The notes under the pieces were generated by a model. That model did not search any database. It was not told the origin of the DNA and saw only the letters and a list, made by a program, of their open reading frames with translations. From IMG/VR virus record IMGVR_UViG_3300030118_007170, positions 6,828-38,881 of that record: a stretch of DNA of 32,054 nt, one strand, 5' to 3'. This document shows, in pieces, positions 1,919 through 23,388 of the stretch; the stretch's first letter is position 1, and every line of letters begins with the position of its first letter. This stretch comes from a virus. Both the position numbers and the translations under genes were made by a program.

Positions 1919-4414
1919 ATGCTATTAGATACTAGATTTTCTAAAAATATATTTAAAAGAATTAATGAAGATAATATAACTTTTAACAAAGAAAAAGATA
2001 ATAGCTTTAGTTTAAATTTTGTACTTCCAGTTAATATAAGCAATAAAATATTTAAGTTTTGCTTTATATTTGAAGACAAACTTAGCAAGTCTAGGTTTTA
2101 CGATATTAAAGCTTCTAGAAACAATAAAATAGAAGTTCTGTATGATAGTGCAAAGGTATTAGATAGTGAACTAAGTATATCTTTAAAGCAAGTTGACTAT
2201 GAAAAATACCTTTTTAGTGATAAGATAACAATATATGCATACAATAAGTTTAAAAACATATTAGATAAAACTGAAATACTTTTAACAAAAAGCCTTGAAG
2301 ATAAAAAAGATTTAGCAAAATTAAAAATAAAATCTTTAAAGTCAAAAAAAGAATTATTAGAAGAAATACCTGTTTTAAATGTATCAAAAGGTATTTTTAA
2401 CTTTAAGTCAGTTTATAGAAGTAATGATTTTAAAATTATATCTTGCTCTATTTTTTTTAATAACAAATCTTATAAAAGTGATATAGAAAAAAGTGGATTA
2501 ATAGAGTTTAATAAGAAAAAGTTTAGAGATCTTTACAATGATTTAAACGATAGTTTTTATAAAAATAAGTCAGTAAAGGTAAATTACGAAATACAAATTC
2601 ATAATAGACTTGTAAATAGAAGTACATATCATATAGACTCAATAGTTTTAGATAGAAACATGTTCTTAAATGATTTTTCTACAAAAGAATACTTAAAAAA
2701 TAGAGTTTATAATTCGATTTTAGTTAGTAATACAATAGATAAAGATGGTAAAAATAAAATTAAAGTAAACTTTAAAAATAAACTATTTAAAGATAGAATA
2801 AAATTAGAAGAAGTATTAGACAGTAAAAGTAAAAAAATAAGTCTGTTTAAAGGTAAAGAATCAGATAATTTAAAAGTAACTGAAAAAGAAATATTTGAGC
2901 AAGATTTAAGCTTCTATACGAAAAGTTCAAAAAGATTTGATAGCTTAGTTTTTTCAATTGATAATGAAAAAATTAGAATTAGAAAAGAAGATATACTAAA
3001 AGTTGACAAAAAAATTAATTTAAAACAAAAAAAACTTTTTAATCAAGACAAACAAAGCTATCATAAAAATTTTATTAAATTCTATAGAGTATTAAGAGAA
3101 AACTTTAAAATAACTTCAACTTTTAATCATAGCAGTAGGAATTTTTTCTCTGAAAGTTTTTCTTTAAATGTTGGTAATTTCAAAAAAGTAGCTGAATCTT
3201 TTGGATACAATCAAGAAGAAAATGATCAAAACTTAGATGATGAGATAAACTTTTTAAAATCTTCTATTTTCGTTATTGAAAAATCATACTATTTTAATAA
3301 CGAGCTATTTGATGTTAAGCAAAAAAACTTTAAGTTAGAAGACTTATTTGATTTTAAAAATATAAAAAATAATACTATTAACTCAAACAAAGATTTAAAT
3401 TTAAATACACAAAGCTTTTCAGGGTTTTTAAGTAATAGATATTCTAAAAAATATCAAAATTTATTAAAAATTGTATCTTTAGATGATAGTGAAGATCTAT
3501 ATAGAAAACTAAGTATACTTAAAAACATAGAAATGTTTACTTATAGTGTTAAATATAACATATATGCAATACCTGTAGATAAAAAATTAAAAGTCATCAA
3601 AGAGTCCGGGTATGATTTAAGTCAGCTTAGTAAAAGAAAAATATATGTTGCTCAAAATCCTGGTAATGATTCTAATATAAACTTAGGAAATAAAACTCTA
3701 AATGAATTTTTAAATCAAGTTTTAGTAAAAGGAATAAACTTTTCTAAAAGAGAAAATATAAAAAAGAATTTTCTTTCTAAAGAAAATACTGATTCTAATA
3801 ACATAGACTTTTGTAAAAATATAATAAATAATTCTATTATTATTAATAGCGAATTTCTAATAAAAAGCTTTGATAACAATCTTATAGAAAGTGAAGTCAA
3901 AAATTCATCAGTTAGAAACTCAAAAAAAGATTTATTGCCTAAAGTAGTTTTTAATAGAGTTTTTGTAGAAAAAGGAAAAATAAAAAGAAATAGAAATATT
4001 TCATCTAGTATGTCTAGTATTAATCATGACATAGTATTAGATATAACTGATACAAAACTTGATAGCTTAGAAGATTTAAATGATATAAGGTTAAAATATC
4101 TATTTTATAAAGATATTGGTTATATAAATGGAGATATTTCAAATTTATCTAAAATAGGAAACGATGTTTTTTATTCAAAAGAGTATATCAATAAAAACAA
4201 ATCAGACTTTAGCTCTTACTTTATTGCTAATGATCTAAAAAACATGTCAATTAAAAATGAAAACAATAAAAAATATCTTTGTCTAAACATTGAAAATGAA
4301 AACATATTGTTAGATATTCTTCAAGATATAAACTCTAGATACAAAATTTTAATAGAGTATACTTATATAAAAGACGATATTTTAATAGAATGTCAAAATA
4401 TAGTTAACTTATAA
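1919..4414 (+). CDS. Large Lys/Asn-rich phage protein, unknown function (831 aa)
   Basis: I do not recognise this protein. The ATG at 1919 lies 3 bases after the previous stop and has GGAG about 7 bases upstream. The sequence is rich in Lys, Asn, Ser, Ile and Phe, and I found no tryptophan in the 831 residues. It has no membrane segment, long coiled coil, nucleotide-binding loop or zinc site that I can see. The alternation of short hydrophobic and charged stretches suits beta-rich structural proteins. It sits inside a tight run of large structural-type genes and is likely a virion or tail component. Its size and the extreme AT content (lysine as AAA, asparagine as AAT/AAC) make sequence-based assignment unreliable. 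Confidence 0.7.
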   Translation: MLLDTRFSKNIFKRINEDNITFNKEKDNSFSLNFVLPVNISNKIFKFCFIFEDKLSKSRFYDIKASRNNKIEVLYDSAKVLDSELSISLKQVDYEKYLFSDKITIYAYNKFKNILDKTEILLTKSLEDKKDLAKLKIKSLKSKKELLEEIPVLNVSKGIFNFKSVYRSNDFKIISCSIFFNNKSYKSDIEKSGLIEFNKKKFRDLYNDLNDSFYKNKSVKVNYEIQIHNRLVNRSTYHIDSIVLDRNMFLNDFSTKEYLKNRVYNSILVSNTIDKDGKNKIKVNFKNKLFKDRIKLEEVLDSKSKKISLFKGKESDNLKVTEKEIFEQDLSFYTKSSKRFDSLVFSIDNEKIRIRKEDILKVDKKINLKQKKLFNQDKQSYHKNFIKFYRVLRENFKITSTFNHSSRNFFSESFSLNVGNFKKVAESFGYNQEENDQNLDDEINFLKSSIFVIEKSYYFNNELFDVKQKNFKLEDLFDFKNIKNNTINSNKDLNLNTQSFSGFLSNRYSKKYQNLLKIVSLDDSEDLYRKLSILKNIEMFTYSVKYNIYAIPVDKKLKVIKESGYDLSQLSKRKIYVAQNPGNDSNINLGNKTLNEFLNQVLVKGINFSKRENIKKNFLSKENTDSNNIDFCKNIINNSIIINSEFLIKSFDNNLIESEVKNSSVRNSKKDLLPKVVFNRVFVEKGKIKRNRNISSSMSSINHDIVLDITDTKLDSLEDLNDIRLKYLFYKDIGYINGDISNLSKIGNDVFYSKEYINKNKSDFSSYFIANDLKNMSIKNENNKKYLCLNIENENILLDILQDINSRYKILIEYTYIKDDILIECQNIVNL

Positions 4415-4427
4415 AATAGGTAATAAA

Positions 4428-7400
4428 ATGTCGAATATACCAGATATTCCAATAGACAATAGATTTAGTGAAATTAGTGAAGCAAGAAGCTCTATAGAAG
4501 AAGCACAAAGAGAAGTAGCTATAAATTCTTCTATATCTTCTAGAAATATTGAAACAATATCAATTGAAAGTATTGCAAGGAATAGAAGAGCAAGAAGATC
4601 ACCTGCGCCAGACTTTGAACAAATATCTTCTTTCACAGATGATATAAGTCAAGGAATTATTCGTAACAACACACAAATAGAAGAAACTTTTTCAAATTAT
4701 ATAGAAACATCTTTAGAAACAATATATGGTGATGGTAATGAAAGCTCTATTGTAGAAAACAATATAATAGAAGAAATATCAACTTTATCCTATGTTGTTA
4801 ATAGTGACTTAAAAGAAGATTCTTTGAAAAACATTAAGAGAAATGGATCTTTAGATATTGCATCTATAATATTTCAAAATATTGACAATATACCTGATAA
4901 TGTGTTTTCATTTTATAATAGTATTACTAATAAAAGTATTTCTAGTGTTCAAACAATATCTCATATAAATCCTAAAAATAAGCTAGTTACTAATCAAATA
5001 TTTAAACTACAAATAAAAGAACCTAACAACAAGATAACAGAAGAATATTATAACAAAGTAGAAATTCAAGCTAAAAAAATGTTTAGCAGAATTCCAAAAA
5101 TTGTTGAATTTGTTGACAGTAAAATAACTGATAAGTTTAGAAAGACAGATACTTACCTAGATTCTATAAAATTTGGCATTGAAAAGTTTGAAGACTTTTC
5201 AAAGAAAAATAATTATGCAAATATAGTTGAAAGATATTTTAACGAAAATTCAACTTCTAAGTATTTAGGAAAGATATACAAGGAATCATCTTTTGATCAA
5301 AGTTTAGTTAATAGTTTTATACAAGGTGTTAATAATAATATTTCAAGTACCCAAGATCAAGATTTAAACTTAAATGAGTTTTTTGGAAAAGGAACAGCAA
5401 TTAGTAATGTTACAAAGTCTTCGCTAATTATTACTGACTTTAAAAACAAAAACGATGATATTTTAGATACTGACTCTTTTATTGCACAGCAATATGCAAA
5501 CTTATCTTGTAGTTTATTTACTTACTATCCTTCTTTATTTAAAAACAATCTTCTTATTTATAACATTACTATTCCAACTAACACGCAAAAACTAGATTCA
5601 AAATCTCCAAAAGTCTGTATTGACGTTGAAAACAATAGAGATAAAAATATTTATAGCTATATTAATTCTGAAAATGTTTCTCTAAATCAGACTTCTTTAA
5701 TAAAAGACACAATGTCGTATACAGAATCTGTTAATTCATTTGAAAAGTGTATTGATAAAGATTTTATACTAGATAGTGGTACAAATATAAGTATATTAGA
5801 TAATACTGAAAGAAATCGCATAAGAAGTATTGATTTAGATATTAATACCTTATCTACACAATTATTTATAGACTTTACAGACTTTGATGACCATTTTATT
5901 AGATTTGAAGAAGTAATAGCTAGTAAATCCGATTCTGATCTTGTTAATTTAAATGCTAGGAAAACTTTTTCTGATATTTTTAGTAGTTATATTTATGAAA
6001 ACTTTATAAATTCAATTTCTATTCAAAATCAAGATATATTTTCTAATTTTTATAAAACATTTAAGTCTTATATTATGTATTACTTAGACAACAACAAAGA
6101 AGAATTTATAGAAGGCTCTAATAGTATTGACTTAGATACTTTTAAATTTTTTAAGAATATTATACAAAAAGTTATTAATAGTAATGAAGATGAAGAAATA
6201 TATAATTTTAATATTCAAAACTTAAGTTCAAATAACAGCTTATATAAAGAAAATATATCTTTTCTTTTAATAAAATATTTAATAGAAAACAATGATATAA
6301 TTAACTTATCGTCTAATGAAATAAAAAATAATATAAATTCTTTAAATAATGATTTAAATTATAGAAACAGAAATCACGTAAATCCTGATATGAATGAAAT
6401 GATTGAAAATAATCAGAATATTATAGAATTTAACGAAAACATAATTTTAAATAAATTTCTTGAAAACAAAAACTTTAAAGACTATATTTTTTCTCCTCTT
6501 AAACCTACTGGATTTAAAAATTTATACAAAGACTATATAAACGGTATTTCAAGACTTGAATTTACGCCATGGATGATTGGATCAAATGCTGACTCTTTAG
6601 CAAGACAAGATGAATTAATACGTGTTTTTTTAAATAGAGACAAAATATTAGAAATGACTAAAAATTACATAAAGACAGTTTATGTAATGAAAGAAATTAC
6701 TAGGAAAACTTTGATACTTTTATTAAGAAAGTTTAATATATTTAACAATAAAGTTCAAAATATGATATCGATGGATTTAAATAGAGATTCTCGATCGTTT
6801 AGTGACTTAAGCATTGATATATTGAAAATTCTAAATAGACAAAGTAATGAAAACTTTTTTTTAACTGGTAACAAAAACTTAGATGTAGAATTAAAATCTA
6901 AAAGTCTTACTATATTAAAAGAATTAATTTCTGGAACAAGTAATTTTATTAATCAAGAAAATAAAAGAAACTATGACTTTTTATCAAAAGATAACTTATC
7001 TTTAAATTCAAATAAGTTATTAATAAATTCAGATTATTTTATTAAAAAACTAAAACTTTCTTATCTTAAAAAACATAACGTAAATATAGAATTGTTTTTA
7101 AATACATGTAAATCTTTAAAAGAAAAAAGCGGGAATTCTTATTTAGCAACTTCTTCAGATAGTAGCAATTCTAATTCTTTTATCTACAGAGAAGATCTAT
7201 TGTTTAAAGAGTTTTACAAGTCTGAAGACGAAAAGTATTATTCTTACTATAATTTTTTTAATTGCAAAGTACAAAACGATTTAAATATTTTTAATACTAA
7301 TTTTATTTTAAACAATGAATTAGAAGACTCATCTTATGATGAAAAGTATAATAAATTTCATTCTTTAATAAAAAACTACTATTTTAAAAATGTATTTAAA

Positions 7401-9836
7401 AATACTTCTACTTACTTGCTTAGTAATATTAAAAACACAAATAGGTATTTTAATCAAACAATTTTAGAAAACAATAAAAACGATATGATATTGCAATATT
7501 TATATTTCTGTTGTTTTGAAAACGAAATATCAAGTGCTAACATTGAAAAAAAATCAATAGTAAAAAGATTCTTAGAGAAGAGTGTTACTAGACTTCTAGG
7601 AATAAATGATACATCTTTTAAATTTAGTATTAATGATGTAGTTAAATCTGACTTTGAAGAAGAAGATGGATCTTTTAACAAAGAAAAGTACAATAAAGAA
7701 ATTTTAGATTCAAACGAAGAATATAAAAAATTAATAAATTCTATTTTTAATTTTAATGAAAATATTGCAAAGTCTACAGAAGTTTTTAGGCTTTATAATT
7801 TAAGACCTTTACTACTAAACATCAATAAAGAAAATTCTGAAGAGTTTTCGTCTAATAACATAACTATTACAGAAGATTTTAATTTTGATAATCAGTTAAG
7901 AAACGAAGGAATAGCAATAAACAATTTCATTGACATAGAATATTATACTTTTCCTTTTAAAAAGCTTACTAGAGAATATGTTGCAACTTATAATATAAAC
8001 AATAATTTTTTTAAATTGATAAATATAAGAAAAAGATTTGAAACTGTATTTGACGAAGAAGGTAATCCACTTCTTTTAGTTAAAGAAAAGTTTAATCATG
8101 TACCTATTAAAGAAAAAAGTAATAATGATACAAATAGTAAGTACATCATAAGTAGTGTTAATAGTGTTCATTATAGTCATAGCGAAAAAATAACAGACAA
8201 CTTTAATGAAATTTGTGAAAAAGAAGGTACGTTATTTAATTTAATAATTAAACAAATAATTTTGACAATAGAATCAATAAAGTCAGATGATCTTTCTTCT
8301 GTAAATGATATTCAAGACGTAAATAATTTTATAGAAAACAATAAAGACTTATACTTTTTTGGAGAAAAAATAATAGAGAATATTTCTGATATATATAATA
8401 TTATTTTTAGAAGAGTAGAACTTTCATCATATAATAATTCATTACCAGATACAAACACTATTGAACAATTAGATTTACCTGAAATTTCTTTTGAAAACGA
8501 GTTAAAGATAGAAAACATATTAGAAGATATAACAAAGTTTGGTAATATAAACAATGAAGAAAAAATAAATTTACACCCAGCTAAAATATATGATACATCA
8601 AAATCTGAAAGTTATTTAAATAAAAATGAACTTTTTAAAGAAAGAAGCGATCAATTTCTAGTTCACAAAGATGGTGAAGTATTAAGCTTTAGTACTAATA
8701 ATTTTATTGAAAATCAAATAATAAAAGCTGCAATTTCAGACCAACTTCAAAGCCTTACGTTTGATATGATAAGCGGATATTATCTTAATCAAAAAGAATT
8801 CTATGAAAACAATCTAAAAGAAGAATTTAAAAATAGTGAATTTGAATTTTTAAAAAACGAGCTTTTATTAGGTGACGAAATATATGAAAACATAAGTAAT
8901 ACATCTTATAAAAGAAACATATACAAAGAAATCTCTAGAATAATGTATGAAAATAAGTCGCTTTATAAAAACTTTGTAAAGAACAAAACCGATATTCATA
9001 CTTATTACAAAGATAACATTAATAAATTTTTCTCTTCTTTAAAGAGTGATTCTAATTATATAAATAGTATTATTAAATACTTAGATCAAGAAGCTTATAA
9101 TAAAAATATACTTACTGTAGGGATTCCAAATAATTTAATTGATAGGATTGATAATAATATTGCTTTAAGTGTTAATATTGATTTTGTTAATCACGAAAAA
9201 ACAAGTGTATCTTCTAAAGAGATAAAATTTATTCCTACGCTTAATAATTTAATAAGCAACTATTATAATCAAGATATCTATAAAAACGAATACAATGGAT
9301 TTATAAGTATTTTTAATGAAAATAATAAAGAAATAAAAGAGAGATATAGTATTGTAAATACATCAGGAATAGATAATACTTTCATTAGTGATATATCAAA
9401 AAATCATATTGATTCGTTCTCTTACAAGAATATATTTAATGTAGCTTATAATAATAGTATAAAAGAAGATTTATTTTTTATAGATGAAAATTATAATAGT
9501 AGACTTATAGACATTGATTTTTATAATCTTATTTTAAGCCTTCGTGAAAGAGACTTTAATCTAATATCTGATATTGATAAAGATATATTTGAAGAAAATA
9601 TTAGTATTGTAGATGATAAATATGTAAAAATACCAGATCTTTCTTATTGCATTTCTAACAATATTAACATTTACAATACTTTGTATGAAATTAATAAAAA
9701 TATATCTAATATAAAGTTTGATAAAATGTTTAAAGAAAAACTTTTTTATGAAATTTACTTTATTCCTATAGACAGAGAGAATAATGATGGTATAACATTA
9801 TATCCTGAGTTTAGTCTTGTTAAACTAAAGCCTTAG
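4428..9836 (+). CDS. Giant phage structural protein, unknown function (1802 aa)
   Basis: This is the largest gene in the window; no function is recognised. The start at ATG 4428 follows AGGT with 7 bases spacing, and the gene ends in TAG. The N-terminal 70 residues are Glu/Ser/Arg-rich and probably helical. Most of the protein is Asn/Ile/Ser/Glu-rich. A less degenerate block around residues 688-785 contains FTPWMIGS, with W715 the only tryptophan I found in the whole chain, followed by a hydrophobic helical stretch. This block may be the conserved core. Proteins of this size in structural modules of myoviruses are often baseplate, tail-fibre or tape-measure components. The lack of long regular helices argues against a tape measure. 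A baseplate or fibre-network role is inference from position only. Confidence 0.75.
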   Translation: MSNIPDIPIDNRFSEISEARSSIEEAQREVAINSSISSRNIETISIESIARNRRARRSPAPDFEQISSFTDDISQGIIRNNTQIEETFSNYIETSLETIYGDGNESSIVENNIIEEISTLSYVVNSDLKEDSLKNIKRNGSLDIASIIFQNIDNIPDNVFSFYNSITNKSISSVQTISHINPKNKLVTNQIFKLQIKEPNNKITEEYYNKVEIQAKKMFSRIPKIVEFVDSKITDKFRKTDTYLDSIKFGIEKFEDFSKKNNYANIVERYFNENSTSKYLGKIYKESSFDQSLVNSFIQGVNNNISSTQDQDLNLNEFFGKGTAISNVTKSSLIITDFKNKNDDILDTDSFIAQQYANLSCSLFTYYPSLFKNNLLIYNITIPTNTQKLDSKSPKVCIDVENNRDKNIYSYINSENVSLNQTSLIKDTMSYTESVNSFEKCIDKDFILDSGTNISILDNTERNRIRSIDLDINTLSTQLFIDFTDFDDHFIRFEEVIASKSDSDLVNLNARKTFSDIFSSYIYENFINSISIQNQDIFSNFYKTFKSYIMYYLDNNKEEFIEGSNSIDLDTFKFFKNIIQKVINSNEDEEIYNFNIQNLSSNNSLYKENISFLLIKYLIENNDIINLSSNEIKNNINSLNNDLNYRNRNHVNPDMNEMIENNQNIIEFNENIILNKFLENKNFKDYIFSPLKPTGFKNLYKDYINGISRLEFTPWMIGSNADSLARQDELIRVFLNRDKILEMTKNYIKTVYVMKEITRKTLILLLRKFNIFNNKVQNMISMDLNRDSRSFSDLSIDILKILNRQSNENFFLTGNKNLDVELKSKSLTILKELISGTSNFINQENKRNYDFLSKDNLSLNSNKLLINSDYFIKKLKLSYLKKHNVNIELFLNTCKSLKEKSGNSYLATSSDSSNSNSFIYREDLLFKEFYKSEDEKYYSYYNFFNCKVQNDLNIFNTNFILNNELEDSSYDEKYNKFHSLIKNYYFKNVFKNTSTYLLSNIKNTNRYFNQTILENNKNDMILQYLYFCCFENEISSANIEKKSIVKRFLEKSVTRLLGINDTSFKFSINDVVKSDFEEEDGSFNKEKYNKEILDSNEEYKKLINSIFNFNENIAKSTEVFRLYNLRPLLLNINKENSEEFSSNNITITEDFNFDNQLRNEGIAINNFIDIEYYTFPFKKLTREYVATYNINNNFFKLINIRKRFETVFDEEGNPLLLVKEKFNHVPIKEKSNNDTNSKYIISSVNSVHYSHSEKITDNFNEICEKEGTLFNLIIKQIILTIESIKSDDLSSVNDIQDVNNFIENNKDLYFFGEKIIENISDIYNIIFRRVELSSYNNSLPDTNTIEQLDLPEISFENELKIENILEDITKFGNINNEEKINLHPAKIYDTSKSESYLNKNELFKERSDQFLVHKDGEVLSFSTNNFIENQIIKAAISDQLQSLTFDMISGYYLNQKEFYENNLKEEFKNSEFEFLKNELLLGDEIYENISNTSYKRNIYKEISRIMYENKSLYKNFVKNKTDIHTYYKDNINKFFSSLKSDSNYINSIIKYLDQEAYNKNILTVGIPNNLIDRIDNNIALSVNIDFVNHEKTSVSSKEIKFIPTLNNLISNYYNQDIYKNEYNGFISIFNENNKEIKERYSIVNTSGIDNTFISDISKNHIDSFSYKNIFNVAYNNSIKEDLFFIDENYNSRLIDIDFYNLILSLRERDFNLISDIDKDIFEENISIVDDKYVKIPDLSYCISNNINIYNTLYEINKNISNIKFDKMFKEKLFYEIYFIPIDRENNDGITLYPEFSLVKLKP

Positions 9837-9847
9837 AAAGATTTAAG

Positions 9848-11461
9848 ATGAAAACAAAAAATATAATATTAGACTTTTCAAATAATACTCTTGAGATTGA
9901 TTACGATTTTATTTATAATTTTTATCAAGAAATAGAAACTATAACTGAAGATGGTTTTATAGATAATTTAAATACTGATTTTAAAAAGAGCAAGTTTATA
10001 AAAATTAATTTTAAGTTTATAAACGAAGCAAGAAAAATTAAAATAAGAGATAGATTTACACCAAATATTAATATTGATTACTTTAGAAGCATTAGTAACA
10101 ATAATTTACCTTTGTCTTTAGACGATAGAAGACTTTTTAATACTTTAAACAAAATAGATAACTACTTTTATATAAATGAAGATGTTAAAGATAGTAGTTA
10201 TACAAATGATAGTGATATTAAAACAACTTTAAGCTATTTTAACTTAAGTAATGATTTAGACTTTTATAAAAACTCTAATTGTGTTTATTACAATAAGAAT
10301 TTAGCTAGCTTTATAAAGAATTCAAAGTCAAATACTAATGTATTGCAGAATAAAAATATTGAAAATATTGAAACTTACAAAAGTGTTTTAAATACTGAAG
10401 ACTTTAATGAAAATTTTAATTCTAATATTATTAATTATATACCAAATATAAGTAATAATTTGTTTTCATACTCAGAAATAGAATCAGACAACAATAAAAG
10501 AAAAAAAGCTTTTATTGGTATTCTTACAGATAAATTTATAAAAGACGAAGACGACTATAAATTAAAAAGTTCAACTTTTTATTTTACTCAAAATCACTTT
10601 TCTAACTTTAGTAGAGAAATAAACGATGTTGGTGTAAAGTATGGAAGAGTTTATAAATATGTTTTTTATCCTGTCTACTTCTATAGTAGACCAACTATTG
10701 ATGAAGGCTTAACTTTAAGTGACTATTTAATTTGTGATACACCTTCAATAACTGAAGATATTTTGTGTGTAGAAAATATAAGGCCAACTGTTATAGGAAA
10801 TTTAAGAGGAAAATATTTTGAAAATAGAAAGTCTTTTAAATTAAGATGGTCACAACCTGCTGAAAATCAAAATGATATAAAAGGTTTTCAGATATTTAAA
10901 AGAACAAGCTTGGATGAGCCATTTATGCTTGTTAAGCAACTAGAAGGTCATAGTAATATTGATTTTTATGATAGAAATGAAAACATAAGTAAAGATCAAG
11001 TTGTACATGAAGAAGGAAAAATATTTAGAGAATACTATGATGATACTTTTAATCCTACAGATATTACAATATATACTATTTGTAGTATTGATGCTCATGG
11101 TTTAACATCAAGCTACTCAGAGCAAATAGCTTTTACATATGACTTTCTAAATAAAAAGACAATTGCAGATCTTGTAAGTACATCAGGTGCACCAATATTT
11201 TATCCTAATTTGTTTGTTCCAAGAAAAACAATATTTTTCGATAATGATGATAAGCTTTCAACAATAACGCCTTCAGCTACAAGAAAAACAAAGTTTACGC
11301 TTATGTTTACACCTGACTGTTTAAAGCATGATACAGAGCAATCAAGTCAAACATTTGAAAAATTATTTAAGAATGAATATGAATTTAGTATATTTAGACT
11401 AAATAATAGAAGTATATATGAAGACAAGATAAGTATTAATTATAACGAACAAGAACAATAA
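9848..11461 (+). CDS. Structural protein with fibronectin type III-like domain (537 aa)
   Basis: Starts at ATG 9848, 11 bases after the previous stop, with AGAAAG as a weak ribosome site. Residues about 313-433 look like a fibronectin type III domain: FKLRWSQP on an early strand, KGFQIFKR on the C strand, then a YTICSIDAHGLTSSYSE segment typical of the last strands. The part before it is Asn-rich and low in complexity. The part after it has a Pro-containing beta-type region ending in charged residues. FnIII-like domains are common in phage tail and baseplate proteins, where they bind carbohydrate or act as spacers. A tail surface role is therefore likely, although no receptor specificity can be read from the sequence. 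It closes the first block of large genes and is followed by a 68-base gap. Confidence 0.75.
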   Translation: MKTKNIILDFSNNTLEIDYDFIYNFYQEIETITEDGFIDNLNTDFKKSKFIKINFKFINEARKIKIRDRFTPNINIDYFRSISNNNLPLSLDDRRLFNTLNKIDNYFYINEDVKDSSYTNDSDIKTTLSYFNLSNDLDFYKNSNCVYYNKNLASFIKNSKSNTNVLQNKNIENIETYKSVLNTEDFNENFNSNIINYIPNISNNLFSYSEIESDNNKRKKAFIGILTDKFIKDEDDYKLKSSTFYFTQNHFSNFSREINDVGVKYGRVYKYVFYPVYFYSRPTIDEGLTLSDYLICDTPSITEDILCVENIRPTVIGNLRGKYFENRKSFKLRWSQPAENQNDIKGFQIFKRTSLDEPFMLVKQLEGHSNIDFYDRNENISKDQVVHEEGKIFREYYDDTFNPTDITIYTICSIDAHGLTSSYSEQIAFTYDFLNKKTIADLVSTSGAPIFYPNLFVPRKTIFFDNDDKLSTITPSATRKTKFTLMFTPDCLKHDTEQSSQTFEKLFKNEYEFSIFRLNNRSIYEDKISINYNEQEQ

Positions 11462-13591: not shown

Positions 13592-16483
13592 ATGACTTTA
13601 GTACCACTAAGTAACAAAAACTTTGTTAAAACTACTGTAAAGGTAGCACCTAAAACAACCTACGTATCAGCTAGTAGTGACTGTAATAATTTTGGTGAAT
13701 TAGCAATTAGCGGTACAGGAATATCTGGATCTGTATTTGATAGAGAAGATTTTTCAAAGTCAATTATACCTACAAAGATAGATGGAAAGTTAAAATCTAC
13801 ACTAAACAGTACAACAAAAGATATATTTTCAGAAGGATTTAGTAAAGAAGGAAGTAATATAATTAATGAACTTGAAAGGATTAGAACTGCTGAAGGTGAA
13901 AATTATCAAGATGAGATAAATGCAAACAATTTTAAAAATGAATTCAAAATAAAAAGAACAATTCAAAACTTTCTATACGGAGATGTAAATCTAGACAAAA
14001 AAAACTATGTTAAAAATATTTTATATCCATTTTATAGAAAAAATAAAGACAATGATAATTTAAACAATGTTTATTGGGGGTTTTCTAATTACAATAGTTT
14101 AAACTTTTTCTCACAAGGATTTAATTCATCTTATAATTATTCAAGTCATTCAAATTGCTTAGCTTACCCAAACTTCTATACTAATAATAAATATAATTAT
14201 GACTTTATTAAAAAAGATAACTTTAACGTATCATTTTTTATTAATAGAAGAGAAACTGGATCTATAACTGATCAATGTATTTTACATATTCCAAAAGCTT
14301 TCAGTATATTCTTATCAAATGGATCAAGTACTAATACTAATACATTTGGTAATATTAATAAATATAAAATAAAGACAAGTATTGTTCAAAATGATAGTCC
14401 TTTATCTTTTTCTTATAGCGAAACTACAGACTGTATAAAAAGTAATAATTGGCATTATGTTTCTATTAATTTTATAAATACTACAAATGACTCTTATAGA
14501 GTTGACATTTACGTTGATAATAACATTATACAGACATTTACAATTGACACAATATTTAAATATAGTGAATTTGATAATATTATTTTAATAGGTAATAAAT
14601 TTAATAATTACGATGAATTATCCATTAATTCAAATAGTATTGGTGATAACTCTATTCTTAGAAAAAGATTGTTTTCAAGCACAGGTGTAAATCCAGTTTT
14701 AAATAATAAGTTTATAAATATTGAAAAAAGTATTGATATAAATTCTACAAATGAAGACTTTTTTGACAAAACAAAAACAATGTTTTCTTTAGAAGCTGAA
14801 TTGTGTGATTTTAGAATATACTCTAATTCTCTAGATATAGACAAGATTAAACATAATAGAAAAAATGGTGTAAAAAACGTATTAAGTGAAATATTAGATT
14901 CTGGATTATGTTTTTATTTGCCATTATATTTTGTCCCAGTTGCAATTTTCAAAGAAGCTCTATACAATGCATCAGGAGAGACAAAAAAATTAACTTATAC
15001 ATCACCTGTCAATCCTTATTTTAGTAATTTTTGCGGTGGCCATGAAGTAAATGTTGAAAATTTTGTTTTTGAATTTGTTAGAAAACAAACTCCAAATATT
15101 ATAATCGGTGGAATAGATAAAAACAATTTTTATAAAGACACATCTGTAAGTAGTGTTAATAACCTAATAAGATATAAAAGTGGTTCTAATGAAAACGATA
15201 ATACGCTCATAAGAAAAGGCACGTCAGTTAACGAAATATATACAAAAAACTTATTAGATAATTCAGTAATATCAGATAATGAAAAAATTAATAATCTTAT
15301 ATATAGAAATAACTTTATTCTACCTAATGATAATGGGATACAGAAACAATACTTTAATATAATATCAGATGTATTTTCAAGTAATATATCTAACGATAAC
15401 ATGTCTAATACAACAGGATATGAATCTCAATATAATTTTATTGAAAATTTAGAAGAAAGAAATATAAATACAAAATTAGGCATTACAGATCAAATATCTA
15501 AAAATTATCATGTATCAATGGAAAAGATATATAGTGACTTAAACTTTAACGATCTATATAAAACAAGATATAAAAAAAATTTTTTTACAAAAGATAATGG
15601 AATTCCATATTCTGATGAATTTAATAATGAAGAAAGACCTATTGAAACAATATCAGATATACCTTACACTATATCTAAAGATACATTATATAGTGTAAGT
15701 AACTTATTATATCATAATAATATTGATATAGATACTTGGACAAATAGTAATACTATTGTTACTGAGCCTAATAAAGACAAATATTTAAATTATTATATCG
15801 ATGAATCTAACTTAAGTAATCCTCTAACTAGAAAATATAAGAATATTCATACAACTCAAGATTATGAAGAAAATCATATTTTTAATGGTTTAACTTATAA
15901 ATCTATATTATTACCTTTCAGAGACTTAATGTGTGATGATTCTTATTTCCATAGTGTTATTTTTGATATTTCTAGTCAAATTTACAACAATAAAATAAAA
16001 AAAGGTTCATTTATTTTAAAAGATGTTGATTTACATGGATCTAATGCTAAATTAAAAATTACTTTAAAAGACAACTATGCTGGATGTTTATATAGATGTG
16101 ATTGTGAAACTGAAGTAGCAGATTGGAATTATGTAGGTCATATATTCTATAGCGAGGGTATATCTACTATACTTCATCCAGGAATAGCAAACTTTGGTGG
16201 TAATAACTTTACATGTGAGTTTGAAAGCGAAAGAAGTTTATTTGTTAATGAAATAAACATACCTTGTGAAAGTGGAAAAATTAACAAGAGTTATAATTCA
16301 ACATATAATGAAGACTTAAGAGCTAGTGATAGTGCTTTTGATCATGATGAGAAATTTGTTTATATAACTGATATTAATCTTCATGATGAAAATTTAAATA
16401 TTGTTGCTAAAGCTAAATTAGCTCAACCTGTTCCTAAGAAATCAAGTGACAATATAGTTTTCAGATTAAAAATGGATTATTAA
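13592..16483 (+). CDS. LamG/concanavalin-like structural protein, putative fibre or adhesin (963 aa)
   Basis: The N-terminal 60 residues include TTYVSASSD, an opening I recall from LamG-containing virion proteins of marine phages. Residues about 210-425 look like a laminin G/concanavalin jelly roll: FNVSFFINRR, then WHYVSINF (about 287), IYVDNNIIQTF (about 307), IGNKF and a closing CDFRIYS (about 405) followed by the helix that usually ends such domains. A low-complexity middle follows. The last 150 residues contain YVGHIFYSEG and the C-terminal domain shared with the 432 aa protein upstream (ITDINLHD, AKAKLAQP, ending RLKMDY). LamG folds often bind sugars, so a host-recognition or decoration role is plausible but inferred. 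The stop codon overlaps the next start (TAATG at 16481-16485). Confidence 0.82.
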   Translation: MTLVPLSNKNFVKTTVKVAPKTTYVSASSDCNNFGELAISGTGISGSVFDREDFSKSIIPTKIDGKLKSTLNSTTKDIFSEGFSKEGSNIINELERIRTAEGENYQDEINANNFKNEFKIKRTIQNFLYGDVNLDKKNYVKNILYPFYRKNKDNDNLNNVYWGFSNYNSLNFFSQGFNSSYNYSSHSNCLAYPNFYTNNKYNYDFIKKDNFNVSFFINRRETGSITDQCILHIPKAFSIFLSNGSSTNTNTFGNINKYKIKTSIVQNDSPLSFSYSETTDCIKSNNWHYVSINFINTTNDSYRVDIYVDNNIIQTFTIDTIFKYSEFDNIILIGNKFNNYDELSINSNSIGDNSILRKRLFSSTGVNPVLNNKFINIEKSIDINSTNEDFFDKTKTMFSLEAELCDFRIYSNSLDIDKIKHNRKNGVKNVLSEILDSGLCFYLPLYFVPVAIFKEALYNASGETKKLTYTSPVNPYFSNFCGGHEVNVENFVFEFVRKQTPNIIIGGIDKNNFYKDTSVSSVNNLIRYKSGSNENDNTLIRKGTSVNEIYTKNLLDNSVISDNEKINNLIYRNNFILPNDNGIQKQYFNIISDVFSSNISNDNMSNTTGYESQYNFIENLEERNINTKLGITDQISKNYHVSMEKIYSDLNFNDLYKTRYKKNFFTKDNGIPYSDEFNNEERPIETISDIPYTISKDTLYSVSNLLYHNNIDIDTWTNSNTIVTEPNKDKYLNYYIDESNLSNPLTRKYKNIHTTQDYEENHIFNGLTYKSILLPFRDLMCDDSYFHSVIFDISSQIYNNKIKKGSFILKDVDLHGSNAKLKITLKDNYAGCLYRCDCETEVADWNYVGHIFYSEGISTILHPGIANFGGNNFTCEFESERSLFVNEINIPCESGKINKSYNSTYNEDLRASDSAFDHDEKFVYITDINLHDENLNIVAKAKLAQPVPKKSSDNIVFRLKMDY

Positions 16484-17034
16484 TGAATTTAGGTTTAGAT
16501 ATATCAACTTCTATAATAGGTGTATGTTTATTTGATAATGATAGTTTTGTACTGATGGATAAAATAGATCTTACTAAAACTAAATGTATATTTGAAAAAG
16601 CTAAAAGAGTTGAAAACTACTTTGATAAGTTATCTTCTGATCATAATATAACAAACATTTATATAGAAGATATACTTCAGGCTTTTAGAAGAGGCATGTC
16701 TTCTTCAAAAACTTTAATGCAACTGGCTCGATTCAATGGTGTTGTTTCAAACATTGTATTTCGCAGCTGCGGTTTGATCCCTGTTTACATTAATGTTAAT
16801 ACTGCTAGGAAACTATTAGAAATAAAAATCGATAAAAACAGCGTCATTGACAAAAAAGAACAAGTTTTAAATTGGGTTAACGAAGATTTAGGCGGATATA
16901 ACTGGCCAGAAAAAATAATTAGTCGTGGAAAGAATAAAGGACTTGTAAAATTTGAAAAATTTTGTTATGATATGTCTGACTCATATGTAATATGTAAAGC
17001 AGGTATAAAATTAAATAATGGATATCATAAATAA
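16483..17034 (+). CDS. ruvC: RuvC-like Holliday junction resolvase
   Basis: The RNase H-like fold of RuvC is visible: the first acidic residue D6 in GLDIS on strand one, E62 in YIEDI, and the C-terminal pair D163/D166 in YDMSDSYVI. These match the four metal-binding acidic residues of RuvC (D7, E66, D138/H, D141 in E. coli). At 183 aa the length is normal for the family. It would cut four-way and branched DNA during recombination-dependent replication. In T4 the analogous job before packaging is done by an unrelated enzyme, endonuclease VII (gp49). The start codon overlaps the previous stop (TAATG) and the gene overlaps the primase gene by 17 bases, so it is translated together with replication/repair genes. 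Codon use is still AT-biased. Confidence 0.85.
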   Translation: MNLGLDISTSIIGVCLFDNDSFVLMDKIDLTKTKCIFEKAKRVENYFDKLSSDHNITNIYIEDILQAFRRGMSSSKTLMQLARFNGVVSNIVFRSCGLIPVYINVNTARKLLEIKIDKNSVIDKKEQVLNWVNEDLGGYNWPEKIISRGKNKGLVKFEKFCYDMSDSYVICKAGIKLNNGYHK

Positions 17035-17980
17035 AAGATTAGATTTCTTTGAAAGTTTTATAGATAATTGCCAGCTTGATAAAGATGGTGTTAACTTAAA
17101 TATTTGGTGTCCTTTCTGTAGGAATAAATCAAAAAACAAACTTAAGTTATGTATTCATTTAGAAAAGGGATACTATCATTGTTGGGTATGTGATAAAAAA
17201 GGTTCAAATATACCTAGTCTAATTAAATACGTCAATAAGAACAAAGTAGAAGAGTCTAAAAAATACTTTAAATCTTATAATAAAAAGTTTTCTCTATTTG
17301 AAGAAGATATTATTGAGGAAGAAATAAATGTTTCACTTCCAAATAATTTTAAATTCTTTGTTGAAGACTTTAATCCTATAGATCCAGATGCAAGAGATGT
17401 TTTCAAGTATGCTTTAAAAAGAGGAGTAAATAAACATAAACTGTGCATGTTAAGAATAGGTTATAGTCTTGATAGAGAATATAAAAGGTATTTAATTTTA
17501 CCAAGTTATGATAAAAATGGTAAACTAAATTACCACGTAGGCAGAAACATAGATGTAAGTACACATGATTCTTATAAATACAAAAACGCATCTGTTCCTA
17601 AAAAGAATATTATATTTAATGAACTTAATATAAATTGGAAAATGCCTTTAACTTTAGTTGAAGGACCTTTAGACTTGATAAAAACTAATGATAACTCAAC
17701 TTGCTTACTAGGGTCTACTTTAACAGAAGATATGATTCTTTTTCAAAGTATAATTAAAAATAGAACACCTGTAAATCTTGCGTTAGATAGTGATGCATAT
17801 TCTAAATCTTTAAAAATTGCAAAACTTTTATACTCTTATGATATTGACGTAAATATTGTTGATACAAGAGGTAAAGAAGATGTAGGTGACATGGATAGAG
17901 AATATTTCTTAGAAAAGCTTAATAATTCTAAAAGATATTCTTATAATGACAATTTATTATCTAAGATAAGGATGCTATGA
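17018..17980 (+). CDS. DNA primase, DnaG/gp61-like (zinc finger + TOPRIM)
   Basis: A zinc ribbon opens the protein: C31-x2-C34 (CPFC) and C55-x2-C58 (CWVC) after YYHC. The catalytic core follows with GRNIDVSTHDSYKYKN-type sequence around residues 175-195. The TOPRIM domain carries E215 in LVEGPLDLI and the D257-x-D259 motif in ALDSDAY. At 320 aa it is close to T4 gp61 (about 342 aa) and lacks the C-terminal helicase-interacting domain of bacterial DnaG and the fused helicase of T7 gp4. It would make RNA primers for lagging-strand synthesis; the partner helicase is not in this window. The start lies inside the RuvC gene and the stop overlaps the next start (ATGA at 17977-17980), indicating tight coupling. 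Confidence 0.88.
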   Translation: MDIINKRLDFFESFIDNCQLDKDGVNLNIWCPFCRNKSKNKLKLCIHLEKGYYHCWVCDKKGSNIPSLIKYVNKNKVEESKKYFKSYNKKFSLFEEDIIEEEINVSLPNNFKFFVEDFNPIDPDARDVFKYALKRGVNKHKLCMLRIGYSLDREYKRYLILPSYDKNGKLNYHVGRNIDVSTHDSYKYKNASVPKKNIIFNELNINWKMPLTLVEGPLDLIKTNDNSTCLLGSTLTEDMILFQSIIKNRTPVNLALDSDAYSKSLKIAKLLYSYDIDVNIVDTRGKEDVGDMDREYFLEKLNNSKRYSYNDNLLSKIRML

Positions 17981-20900
17981 GTTTTAAATGCATACATATA
18001 TCAGATGTTCATTTTAGAGGTCTATCGAGACATGATGAATATAAAGTTGTTTTTGAAAGACTTTTTTTAAAAGCTAAAAGCCTTAATCCAAATATAATAT
18101 TTATTGGTGGAGACATAGTACATTCAAAAACACAAGGAATAAGTCCAGAGCTTATTGATATTTTAACTTGGTGGTTTAATTCACTAGCAGAAATTGCACC
18201 TACACATGTAATATTAGGAAATCATGACGGATTAATTCTTAATGAAAATAGACAAGATGCAATTACTCCTATTATAAACGCAATAGACAATAAAAATATA
18301 TTTCTTTATAAAAAAAGCGGAACATATTGTACTGGGATAGAAGGATTTAACTGGTGTGTATTTTCTTGTTTTGATGAAGAAAACTGGAAAAACGTAAAAC
18401 CTGTAAAAAACGAAATAAATATAGCATGTTTTCATGGCGGTGTTTTAGGATCTTTAACAGATAGCGATTGGGATATAAGTGGAGAAGTATCTTTAAGTTT
18501 TTTTAATGGATATGATTTTGGATTCTTAGGTGATATACATAAATTACAATATCTTGACGATGAAAAAAGAATTGCATATCCAGGATCAACAATACAACAA
18601 AACTATGGTGAAAACATAGAAAAAGGATTCTTGTTCTGGGAAATTAATAGTAAATATGACTACACTTCTGAGTTTTTTAGTATTGATAATCCTCATCCTC
18701 ATGTGACTATAGAGTGGAAAAATAATGTTAAAAGTACTATATCTTCTTTAAAAGACTTGCAAGAAAACTCAAAAGTAAGAGTAAGATATAAAGACAATAT
18801 TTCTCAGGCTGAAATAAAACTTATACATGACTTTTTAAAAGAAGAAAAAAATGCTAAAGAAATAGTTTATCAAAACAACGGTATTAAAAACAATACAAAA
18901 GAAGATAAAATAGTTAAAGAAACAAAAATAGATATCAAGTCTGATAGTGATAGAATTAAAATATTAAAAGAATATTTCAGTGAAGAAGATGATAAACTAT
19001 TAAATGAAGTAAACAATTTATATAAAATAAACTTAGATAAAGTATCAAAAGATTATTCAGTATATAATAGCAATGACTGGTCTTTGAAGTCGTTAGAATT
19101 TAGTAACACATTTGGATATGGAAAAAATAATCTTATTAATTTTGATAATCTAGATGGAATTGTTGGTATATTTGGTAATAATAGATGCGGAAAATCATCA
19201 ATTCCTGGAACTTTAATGTATGGATTATTTAATACTACAGATAGAGGTCCTATAAAAAACCAGTACATAGTAAATACAAGAAAAGGTTCATGTCAAGCAA
19301 AGATCAACTTTACAACTTCAGGTAAAGAGTTTGAAATATTAAGAGAAACTACTAAAAAATCAAGTAAAACTAATAAAATAACAACTTCTACAAGTCTTAA
19401 GCTTACAAACAATTCAGGCGAAGAACTTATAAATAAGTCTGAAGAACAAAGAAGAGAAACAGAAAAAGTACTAAGAAGTATTATTGGATCTCATGAGGAA
19501 TTTTTATGTACTACTTTTGCATCTCAAGGAGAAATGAACTCTTTTATTAAAGAAAAGACTACAGCTAGAAAAAAAATTCTTTCAAAATTTTTAAATCTAG
19601 AAATTTATGAAGAGCTTCATAAGCTATCTAGAGATGAATATACTGTAATGAAAAGCAAGCTTAAAGAGTTTAATGAGAAAAACTGGCAAACAATAATTGC
19701 TGATGAAAAGTCTAAAATAGTTAATCTTAAAATAAAAAATGCAGAACTAGAATCAAGCTTAATAGAAATTAGAAATATAGAGATTGAAAAAAGGATTGAC
19801 TTAGAAAAGTTAACTAGTAACTCAAATGATGATCTTATAAGTTGTGAAAAAACAAAGCAAGAAATAAAGTCTATTGAAGATAAAATAGCAAATTTTGAAG
19901 ATATTTTAGAAAATAAATCAAAAAAGCTAGAAGAAAATAAAGAAAAGTCTAGCAAAATAAAAAAGTTTAAGTCAACATTTCCTCTTAAGAAGTTAGAACA
20001 AGACAAAGAAAGAATTGACATTCTTAGTAAAAAGCTAGTTGACTTAAAAAATCAGTTAGGTAATACAAAAACTACACAAAATCGAGCAAAAAATCAGATA
20101 AAGATTTTAAATGAAGTTCCATGTGGTGACAAGTTTAAATCTTGTAAGTTTATTAAGGATGCTCATAGTTCTAAAGACTCATTAAAGGAGTTGGTAGAAA
20201 TTTCAAAAACACTTGAATCTTCTATATTTGAAGTTAAAGAAGTTATAGCTAACTTAGATAAAGTTAAAATAGAGTCTAACTTAAAAAAGTACAATGAAGT
20301 TTTAAATAAAGAATACAAGCTTAAAGTTGACAAGTCTAGTTTAGAATCTGAAATAATAAACATTAAAGAAAAGATAAAAGAAAGCAAGCTTTTACATAAA
20401 GATAAAAATATTTTACTAGAGTCTCTTGTAAATAGTGACAATGATGGTTTGATTAAGAATATTGAGAAGTTAAAAACAGAGTTAAAAGAAGTATCTAAAA
20501 ATATAAATAATTGTGAGATACAAAAACAAGAAAACTTAAGAAGTATCTTCAGACTAGAAAGCAGTATAGAAAATTTAGCTAGTGAAGAAAAAAATTATGA
20601 AGATTTAATTGCAAAATGGCAAATATTTGATTCTTTTACAAAGTCACTTTCTAAAAAAGATGGAATTCCAACAATGTTAATAAATTCTTCTTTGCCTAAA
20701 ATTAACAAAGAAATAAAAAATATTTTAAGTGGAGTTTGCAACTTTGATATAGAACTTGTTGATGAAAGTAATGGTAACTTAAACATCTATATTGATTATG
20801 GTGATTCAAAAAGAATAATAGAGTGCTGTAGTGGAATGGAAAAAATGATATCTTCTATTGCAATAAGAGTTGCTTTAATAAATGTTTCAAATTTACCAAA

Positions 20901-21102
20901 GTCTGATATTTTTATTATTGATGAAGGTTTTGGTTCTTTGGATAGCACGAATATAGAAGCTTGTGGTAGACTATTAAAAAGCTTAAAAAAGTACTTTAAA
21001 ACAATTATGATAATATCACATATAGATTCTATAAAAGATATAGTAGATAAAAATCTTGAGATTATTTTAAAAGGTAAAGACTCGCATGTCAGATTTGAGT
21101 AA
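17977..21102 (+). CDS. Fused SbcD/Mre11 nuclease and SbcC/Rad50 ATPase (gp47-gp46 fusion)
   Basis: One uninterrupted chain of 1041 residues holds both subunits of the recombination nuclease. Residues 1 to about 300 are the Mre11/SbcD phosphoesterase: D10/H12 (SDVHF), D46 (GGDIVH), N82-H83-D84 (GNHDG), H153 (CFHGG) and H188 (LGDIHK). After a charged linker the Rad50/SbcC ATPase begins: Walker A GNNRCGKSS (400-408), Q-loop Q517, a long Lys/Glu coiled coil, a Cys pair C716/C723 at the hook position, signature SGMEK (952-956), Walker B IIIDEGFGSLD (D982/E983) and His switch H1015. T4 encodes these as separate neighbouring genes 47 and 46 in the same order. Its role is end resection and recombination-dependent replication, perhaps also host DNA degradation. 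No frameshift is needed to read through. Confidence 0.92.
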   Translation: MSFKCIHISDVHFRGLSRHDEYKVVFERLFLKAKSLNPNIIFIGGDIVHSKTQGISPELIDILTWWFNSLAEIAPTHVILGNHDGLILNENRQDAITPIINAIDNKNIFLYKKSGTYCTGIEGFNWCVFSCFDEENWKNVKPVKNEINIACFHGGVLGSLTDSDWDISGEVSLSFFNGYDFGFLGDIHKLQYLDDEKRIAYPGSTIQQNYGENIEKGFLFWEINSKYDYTSEFFSIDNPHPHVTIEWKNNVKSTISSLKDLQENSKVRVRYKDNISQAEIKLIHDFLKEEKNAKEIVYQNNGIKNNTKEDKIVKETKIDIKSDSDRIKILKEYFSEEDDKLLNEVNNLYKINLDKVSKDYSVYNSNDWSLKSLEFSNTFGYGKNNLINFDNLDGIVGIFGNNRCGKSSIPGTLMYGLFNTTDRGPIKNQYIVNTRKGSCQAKINFTTSGKEFEILRETTKKSSKTNKITTSTSLKLTNNSGEELINKSEEQRRETEKVLRSIIGSHEEFLCTTFASQGEMNSFIKEKTTARKKILSKFLNLEIYEELHKLSRDEYTVMKSKLKEFNEKNWQTIIADEKSKIVNLKIKNAELESSLIEIRNIEIEKRIDLEKLTSNSNDDLISCEKTKQEIKSIEDKIANFEDILENKSKKLEENKEKSSKIKKFKSTFPLKKLEQDKERIDILSKKLVDLKNQLGNTKTTQNRAKNQIKILNEVPCGDKFKSCKFIKDAHSSKDSLKELVEISKTLESSIFEVKEVIANLDKVKIESNLKKYNEVLNKEYKLKVDKSSLESEIINIKEKIKESKLLHKDKNILLESLVNSDNDGLIKNIEKLKTELKEVSKNINNCEIQKQENLRSIFRLESSIENLASEEKNYEDLIAKWQIFDSFTKSLSKKDGIPTMLINSSLPKINKEIKNILSGVCNFDIELVDESNGNLNIYIDYGDSKRIIECCSGMEKMISSIAIRVALINVSNLPKSDIFIIDEGFGSLDSTNIEACGRLLKSLKKYFKTIMIISHIDSIKDIVDKNLEIILKGKDSHVRFE

Positions 21103-21388: not shown

Positions 21389-21760
21389 ATGGAATATGAT
21401 CTAATACAAAACTTAGGTAATTGTCTAGACAATGTTTATAATAATTATTCAGAGTCACATGATAGAAGAACAGTTGCATCTATAAGAGATGATATGCTTT
21501 GTATTGAGTATAGAACAATATTAAGAGCTGCTAAAGATGTAGAACTCCAGCGACAAATAGATATGCTTAAGTCTGAAACAATGCAAATGATCAAATCTAG
21601 ATTAAAACTAATAAAAGATGATTTTAAAGAATCAGCTGGTAGGTCACTTAGGACAAAAAAAGAAACCGAACATGATTCGATGGAAACATTAACAGTTTCA
21701 GCTTATAATCCTATTAGAACTATTAAGTATAAGTTTGTAGTTTGTTATAAGGTTTCATAA
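21389..21760 (+). CDS. Unknown 123 aa protein in the small-terminase position
   Basis: The first 85 residues are charged and look helical (SIRDDML, EYRTILRAAKDVELQRQIDML and a Lys/Glu-rich continuation). The last 40 look like beta strands (TLTVSAYNP, TIKYKFVVCYKV). No helix-turn-helix or enzyme motif is clear. It lies immediately upstream of the terminase large subunit and overlaps its start by one base (TAATG), where T4-like phages place gp16, the small terminase. That position makes it a candidate small terminase, but at 123 aa it is shorter than T4 gp16 (164 aa) and the sequence itself does not confirm the role. It could instead be another conserved packaging-region protein. Confidence 0.65.
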   Translation: MEYDLIQNLGNCLDNVYNNYSESHDRRTVASIRDDMLCIEYRTILRAAKDVELQRQIDMLKSETMQMIKSRLKLIKDDFKESAGRSLRTKKETEHDSMETLTVSAYNPIRTIKYKFVVCYKVS

Positions 21761-23388
21761 TGTCAAAAAAGCTTTCCAAGCAAAACCAAATAAATGAAAT
21801 AATAAAGTGTGGAAAAGATCCTGTATACTTTATGAACAAGTATTTAAAAATACAACATCCTATAAAAGGATTAATACCATTTAATACTTTTGACTTTCAA
21901 GATGATTGCGTTAAAGATTTTAATGATTATAGATTTAATATTGTATTAAAATCAAGGCAGTTAGGTTTATCAACACTAGCAGCAGCATATTCTGTTTGGC
22001 AAGCTATTTTTTATAAAGAAAAGAATATATTGATAATTGCTACAAAATTAGCTGTTGCGCAAAACTTTATTAGAAAAGTTAAAACTTATATAAAAAGCAT
22101 GCCTAATTGGCTTTTAGTTCCTACAATAACAGCTAATAACAAGCAACAAGTTGAGTTTTCAAATGGCTCTCAAATAAAAGCAGTACCAACATCTGAAGAT
22201 GCAGGTAGATCTGAAGCCTTGTCTTTGCTAATTGTAGATGAGGCAGCTTTTGTAAGAAACTTTGATGAATTATGGATGGGTTTATATCCAACTTTATCTA
22301 CAGGTGGACGAGCTATTATATTATCTACTCCAAATGGTGTAGGTGGACAATATCATGAGCTTTATACAAAAGCTGAAAGAAAAGAAAACAAGTTTAATCC
22401 TATAAAACTTATGTGGGATGTTCATCCTGAAAGAGGCGATGAGTGGTTTGAAAAAGAAACCAAAAACATGTCTAAAAAGCAAATATCACAAGAGTTATTA
22501 TGTGACTTTGCATCTTCAGGAGATACGTTTTTAAATCAAGAAACACTTGAAAAACTTAGAATACTAACTAAAAGCCCCATAGAAAAAAGCGGACCTGAAA
22601 TGAATGTTTGGTATTGGGATTACCCTATAGAAGGAAATAACTATGTAGCTTCTGCTGACGTTTCTAGAGGTGATAGTGGTGACTACTCAACATTTCATAT
22701 AATAAATGTTAATGATATGTCTGTATCTGTAGAATTTAAAGGTAAGATACCACCTGATAATTTTGCATCTCTACTTTATGATGTAGCTAGAAGATATAAT
22801 AAAGCACTTATATGTCCAGAAAATAATGCATATGGATATACAGTTCTATCAAAACTAGGTGATTTAGGTTACGACAATATATACTTCTCTTCAGAAAGAG
22901 AAAAATATAAGTTTCTTTATAGTGATGAAGGCAGTATAGGCAAGGCTGGATTTAATACTAATAAAGAAAGCAGAGAAAAGATTTTAGCAAACTTTGAAGA
23001 ATCATTAAGAAACGGTAGAATAAAAACAAAGTCTATAAGATTAGTATCAGAGCTAAAAACATTTGTTTGGAATGGTAAAAAAGTTGGTGCAATGAAAGGA
23101 TATAATGATGACCTTATTATGTCTTTAGCAATTGGCTGTTGGCTTTCTGATAGTAATAGTGATACATATAATACAATGCAAATTCAATATGCAGATGCTT
23201 TATTGAAAGGTATGCAAGTAAATAATACTGATATTAAGAAAACAAATATGTCTCCTTTCTATAATAGTAAAGAGATAATGGTAAATCCTTTTATTCCTGT
23301 TTATATGGGAGAAAATAGATTTGCTAATAGCAAAGAGTCAACAAAAAAAAATCCTTTGGGTGACTTAAGTTGGTTAATAGGAAAGTAA
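21760..23388 (+). CDS. terL: Terminase large subunit, gp17-like
   Basis: This is the packaging motor and headful nuclease. The ATPase half has a variant Walker A, K64-SRQLGLS-T72, and Walker B LLIVDEAAF with D160/E161. The nuclease half has D300 in SADVSRGDSGD, E354 in CPENNAYG, and D450/D451 in YNDDLIMS, the usual RNase H-like acidic set. The length of 542 aa is a little under T4 gp17 (610 aa). The Walker A lysine is at the start of the loop (KSRQ) instead of the classical GKT place, as known in several phage terminases including lambda gpA. The gene overlaps the upstream one by a base and the portal gene starts immediately after its stop, with AGGAAAG as the portal's ribosome site. Confidence 0.95.
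   Translation: MSKKLSKQNQINEIIKCGKDPVYFMNKYLKIQHPIKGLIPFNTFDFQDDCVKDFNDYRFNIVLKSRQLGLSTLAAAYSVWQAIFYKEKNILIIATKLAVAQNFIRKVKTYIKSMPNWLLVPTITANNKQQVEFSNGSQIKAVPTSEDAGRSEALSLLIVDEAAFVRNFDELWMGLYPTLSTGGRAIILSTPNGVGGQYHELYTKAERKENKFNPIKLMWDVHPERGDEWFEKETKNMSKKQISQELLCDFASSGDTFLNQETLEKLRILTKSPIEKSGPEMNVWYWDYPIEGNNYVASADVSRGDSGDYSTFHIINVNDMSVSVEFKGKIPPDNFASLLYDVARRYNKALICPENNAYGYTVLSKLGDLGYDNIYFSSEREKYKFLYSDEGSIGKAGFNTNKESREKILANFEESLRNGRIKTKSIRLVSELKTFVWNGKKVGAMKGYNDDLIMSLAIGCWLSDSNSDTYNTMQIQYADALLKGMQVNNTDIKKTNMSPFYNSKEIMVNPFIPVYMGENRFANSKESTKKNPLGDLSWLIGK

Follow-up and report, generated by a model that had tools for sequence, protein, structure and literature searches.

Described single-chain and two-subunit Mre11–Rad50 systems

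In E. coli SbcCD and T. maritima Mre11–Rad50, the nuclease and the ATPase are two subunits that assemble as M2R2. T4 gp47/gp46 and the SbcD/SbcC of Herelleviridae are likewise products of separate genes, with one to five intervening genes, and carry GHxH at nuclease motif V and a CxxC hook; according to their annotation, T4 gp46/47 are needed for recombination and to degrade host DNA. Fusions of Mre11 and Rad50 into one chain were described in 2011 by Yoshida, Claverie and Ogata from Mimivirus (R555), a Bacillus phage, plasmids, bacteria and eukaryotes; several fusion events were inferred overall, and R555 homologues reached their highest abundance in the viral fractions of metagenomes (PMC3175470). 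The Bacillus phage named there as carrying a fusion, 0305phi8-36 (NC_009760, EF583821; PMC3175470), was left out of our comparisons. Our literature search for other single-chain Mre11–Rad50 reports, or for the phage group studied here, returned nothing relevant beyond that paper.

The window analyzed here is a stretch of 32,054 nt (positions 6,828 to 38,881 of IMG/VR record IMGVR_UViG_3300030118_007170, itself a 38.9-kb fragment), and it encodes a protein of this R555-like kind, a kind already known since 2011. By its published description, R555 has the same one-chain domain order as the window protein and shares with it two motif changes, GDxxH at the last His of motif II and Asp for His206 at motif V, but it is longer (1351 versus 1041 aa), whereas the window protein is encoded in the genome of a tailed phage and its hook is C-x6-C. 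Fold matches of the predicted structure in BFVD support kinship with the R555 family: the best were proteins of Tupanvirus, Harvfovirus, Yasminevirus, Terrestrivirus and Catovirus, followed closely by one of Tenacibaculum phage pT24 (969–1389 aa, aligned over at least 1096 columns).

Two named phages carry fused relatives. The Microcystis phage Mel-JY01 protein (WWT39521.1, 1066 aa, 34% identity) is also encoded with a primase one small gene upstream, but it has the canonical CxxC hook and is annotated only as an AAA domain protein. The pT24 protein (YP_009876626.1; locus L143, 4480–8412) shares the fusion and the GDIH and SGME motifs, but is 1310 aa long and very divergent, with CxxC in its coil. 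Though a Mre11/Rad50 fusion, it was deposited merely as a "metallo-phosphoesterase."

Architecture of the fused protein

The welding of a Mre11/SbcD nuclease to a complete Rad50/SbcC in a single chain is confirmed: the gene is one open frame on the plus strand (17977–21102, 1041 aa) with no internal stops. Pfam Metallophos covers residues 4–188 at 44 bits, above its cut-off, and phrog_77 (SbcC) covers residues 250–1038 at 150 bits. The PDB relatives found by sequence for the two halves are T. maritima Mre11 and Rad50 and E. coli SbcD and SbcC, and the fold matches in the PDB to an AF2 model of the protein (mean pLDDT 81, pTM 0.48) include Mre11–Rad50/SbcCD head complexes and SbcD.

The chain runs from nuclease through cap, flexible linker and Rad50-binding helices to a complete Rad50/SbcC with a coiled coil of about 350 residues, all on the plus strand, with domain limits that are our interpretation of AF2 secondary structure. 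The phosphoesterase (nuclease) domain comprises residues 1–245 (17977–18711), supported by the Metallophos match, motif alignment and AF2, and is followed by the capping domain (residues 246–300; 18712–18876), supported by AF2 and the E. coli SbcD alignment. The linker (residues 301–322; 18877–18942) is poorly conserved and, with pLDDT below 50 at residues 303–316, predicted to be disordered. Predicted helices at 323–333 and 339–353 form the two-helix (HLH) Rad50-binding domain (residues 323–353; 18943–19035), which aligns with T. maritima Mre11 203–366. A 13-residue fusion junction (residues 354–366; 19036–19074) then leads to the first Rad50 strand. Rad50 ATPase lobe I (residues 367–541; 19075–19599), containing Walker A and the Q-loop and assigned from PDB sequence matches, motifs and AF2, is separated from lobe II by AF2-predicted coiled-coil helices, the ascending arm (residues 542–712; 19600–20112) and the descending arm (residues 727–891; 20155–20649), which flank the hook apex (residues 713–726; 20113–20154). 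Lobe II (residues 892–1041 plus the stop, with an AF2 start at about 897; 20650–21102) was assigned from PDB sequence matches and motifs, including SGME, IIDEGFGSLD and H1015.

The fusion joins a natural Mre11 C-terminus to a natural Rad50 N-terminus, because E. coli SbcD 211–397, of 407 residues, aligns with profile positions 175–361; SbcD thus ends where the Rad50 of the fusion begins. Cap, HLH and short joint are all retained, and in T. maritima geometry about 9–12 residues would bridge the ends of Mre11 and Rad50 (PMC3175470). Since the two proteins are fused end to end (cap, linker, HLH, Rad50), the 1:1 stoichiometry proposed in the initial annotation follows from the architecture. With its stoichiometry fixed, a single-chain Mre11–Rad50 is also a convenient structural tool for studying how the nuclease docks on the ATPase.

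Catalytic motifs

The initial annotation had placed complete Mre11 and Rad50 motif sets in one 1041-residue frame, and a 28-row alignment in which these motifs are conserved bears this out. All five Mre11/SbcD phosphoesterase motifs are present: D10-x-H12 (DVH, 10–12), GDIVH (45–49), GNHD (81–84), H153 and GDIH (185–188). The metal ligands D10, H12, D46, N82, H83, H153, D186 and H188 are invariant across the 28 members. The earlier description of the motifs was accurate as far as it went, but motif V reads GDIH in place of the usual GHxH, and the C-x6-C hook had gone unmentioned. Cellular Mre11 carries a His at the motif V position held by Asp in the fusion. GDIH occurs in all 166 full-length fused proteins, a set for which GDIH was also among the selection criteria.

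The heads carry the features of Rad50/SbcC: Walker A (GNNRCGKS, 400–407), the Q-loop (Q517), the SG signature (SGME, 952–955), Walker B (IIDE, 980–983) and the His switch (H1015). Across the 28 members, K406/S407, Q517, S952–G953, D982–E983 and H1015 are invariant.

The fused form in a clade of aquatic phages

A first scan of IMG/VR returned 41 relatives, and an alignment-based scan at least 581, from which we carried forward the best 80. To avoid bias toward fused genes, we also searched with the nuclease half alone: among 80 relatives, 77 were fused (1044–1077 aa), three were cut by a contig end and none was split, in a search whose patterns derived from fused members, so that split relatives of great divergence may have escaped it. 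Once duplicates were removed and relatives collected, we had 166 distinct full-length fused proteins of near-constant length from independent contigs, answering the initial suggestion to look for other phage fusions; the genes of the Mel-JY01 and pT24 genomes are likewise fused. Judged from these sequences, the fused form is universal within this large, abundant, mostly aquatic tailed-phage clade. The initial view that such a fusion is unusual for phages does not stand, given this clade and the fusions known since 2011 (PMC3175470). A form once thought sporadic thus appears as the fixed form of a large phage clade, inside its core replication–packaging cassette.

Purifying selection acts strongly on both halves: dN/dS was 0.04–0.27 for the whole gene, 0.03–0.17 for the nuclease domain and 0.01–0.09 for lobe II, and in the linker it was below 1 in all pairs tested. 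Eighteen large relatives (contigs of 103–284 kb, which may be incomplete, plus Mel-JY01) have one strong SbcC match each, and it is the fusion. Additional Metallophos matches in some of them are separate frames of 220–278 aa.

In a 484-kb phage (LR756508.1; locus L003, 4375–8600), the fused gene is broken right after GDIHK by an insert of about 1 kb. This insert holds a 305-aa frame that, judged by eye, resembles a homing endonuclease; searching the insert against Rfam for an intron gave no match.

Alternative readings

That a sequencing or assembly artefact joined two genes is recommended only by the rarity of fusions in well-studied phages, and we give it virtually no credence, in view of the distinct fused proteins of near-constant length on independent contigs and the fused genes of Mel-JY01 and pT24, which reject it. 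A hidden stop or sequencing error had been named at the outset as the finding that would overturn the fusion, and it is excluded because of the 166 fused relatives and the low dN/dS over the whole gene. It is also improbable, if less extremely so, that one chain is translated while two proteins do the work, through cleavage in the disordered linker at 303–316 or an internal start. Such a product pair could be read from the predicted disorder and poor conservation of the linker, but the linker precedes the HLH, and a cut there would part the HLH from its own nuclease. To our knowledge, every Mre11 has a flexible linker before the HLH. The short joint between HLH and Rad50 is moreover kept throughout the fused relatives, with no split among the 77 of the nuclease-half search.

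The nuclease might instead be inactive or repurposed, for example as a structural DNA tether or an anti-defence factor, a reading to which GDIH, in 166 of 166 proteins partly selected on it, and the C-x6-C hook, in 97 of the 166, lend themselves. We regard it as unlikely: the remaining metal ligands are invariant, Asp is a good metal ligand that R555 and the SbcD of phage KEY share at motif V, and the nuclease domain is as constrained as its dN/dS indicates. The reading we prefer is a working single-chain Mre11–Rad50 nuclease.

A variant hook apex

The C-x6-C hook is the sole unusual detail of this fusion. The CxxC of Rad50/SbcC is absent from the window protein, where motifs and alignments place C716-x6-C723 (20122–20145) in the apical loop, in the pattern PC-x3-[FY]-x2-C; the protein is therefore Rad50-like by its heads, with a variant apex. 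Among the 166 fused proteins, 97 have Cx6C, 68 have CxxC and one has another spacing. CxxC was present in every split phage SbcC examined and in that of E. coli, except in Moorella phage MTATph1, which has neither form. Recent work on T4 describes CxxC as an absolutely conserved hook (PMC13402864), and we found no description of a C-x6-C Rad50 hook in the literature searched, which was covered in part.

On the head tree, the hook distribution requires two changes, the second being that of loci L114 (1341–4479) and L117 (3618–6756). The heads of these two proteins belong to the Cx6C clade, and their apex (690–790) is closest to CxxC-clade proteins (36–41% identity); because heads and apex match different clades, hook modules seem to have been exchanged by recombination, with L114 and L117 as putative chimeras. 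Tentatively, and with slightly less than even confidence, we suggest that the clade rebuilt its apex from CxxC to PC-x3-[FY]-x2-C, that the resulting dimer is linked by metal or redox chemistry in a changed geometry, that hooks have recombined, and that hook and fusion together would make a self-contained single-gene Mre11–Rad50 machine. The C-x6-C hook offers a natural test of how far Rad50 needs the CxxC zinc site to dimerise.

Origin of the fusion

Separate trees of the nuclease and the ATPase heads both put 31 fused phage forms on one side of a branch and the split forms of T4, SPO1-like phages and E. coli on the other (support 90/98 for the nuclease and 99/95 for the heads), in trees with long branches and few split rows, built without cellular fusions or R555. 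Such a topology is consistent with a single ancient fusion in the sampled forms. The initial annotation had asked for such trees, and the fused forms do group together, but the T4-like ancestry that it proposed, by loss of a stop between genes 47 and 46, is not supported: genes 46.2 and 46.1 intervene in T4, the nuclease-before-ATPase order is general, being found also in E. coli (where sbcD and sbcC overlap by 4 bases), and each of the two trees parts the fused from the split forms. Neither T4-like closest split relatives nor adjacent genes, as a fusion derived from T4 gp47–gp46 would have, were found.

A bacterial or plasmid origin was rejected. Plasmid sequences gave only weak tblastn matches, to the Rad50 lobe, and the matches to genome contigs were nearly all to MAG contigs, several of them probably phage. 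In a "WOR-3 chromosome" MAG (CP070664.1; locus L133, 5998–8055), a phage-like primase and the fusion gene end in a stretch of N, which looks like a mis-joined phage fragment.

Locus context and proposed role

The fusion lies in a conserved one-strand order of RuvC, primase, fusion, two small frames, terminase and portal. In the window, the plus strand carries a RuvC-like Holliday junction resolvase (16483–17034; phrog_159/827, E 2e-7 to 6e-7), a DnaG-type primase (17018–17980; phrog_47, E 3e-34, with TIGR01391 below its own cut-off) and, downstream, the terminase large subunit (21760–23388; phrog_2, E 2e-48). The stop codon of the primase and the ATG of the fusion share the four bases ATGA, and a primase lies directly 5' of the fusion in 175 of the 178 loci with enough sequence. 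Same-strand neighbours include RuvC upstream in 93 relatives and terminase downstream in 120. Phage primases adjoin R555-like genes on marine scaffolds as well (PMC3175470).

From its domain anatomy, motifs, conservation, single copy and RuvC–primase cassette, we read this protein, with a probability of roughly 0.8, as the single-chain Mre11–Rad50 (SbcDC) nuclease with which a large, mostly aquatic clade of tailed phages processes DNA ends, a member of the R555-like fused family of which two chains would equal M2R2 and trim ends for recombination-dependent replication. We infer the dimer form, the nuclease and ATPase activities and the replication role; T4 gp47/gp46 and the Herelleviridae proteins, with a homologous nuclease and ATPase, probably perform the same task. 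By homology, two chains would form the M2R2 equivalent, each N-terminal phosphoesterase riding on its flexible linker while the HLH anchors it at the base of the coiled coil of its own or the partner chain. The ABC heads would close around ATP and gate access to DNA, and the coils of the two chains would meet at the hook. The probable job of the enzyme would be to trim or resect DNA ends or hairpins to 3' overhangs, which may feed recombination-dependent replication and so supply concatemers to the adjacent terminase.

Elsewhere in the window, four frames had no PHROG match: 1919–4414 (831 aa), 4428–9836 (1802 aa), 9848–11461 (537 aa) and 13592–16483 (963 aa). At 88 loci the fusion is preceded by a relative of the 963-aa frame. 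The G+C content of the window (1–32054) is about 21–26% over its first 12 kb and climbs to about 30–35% in the structural genes.
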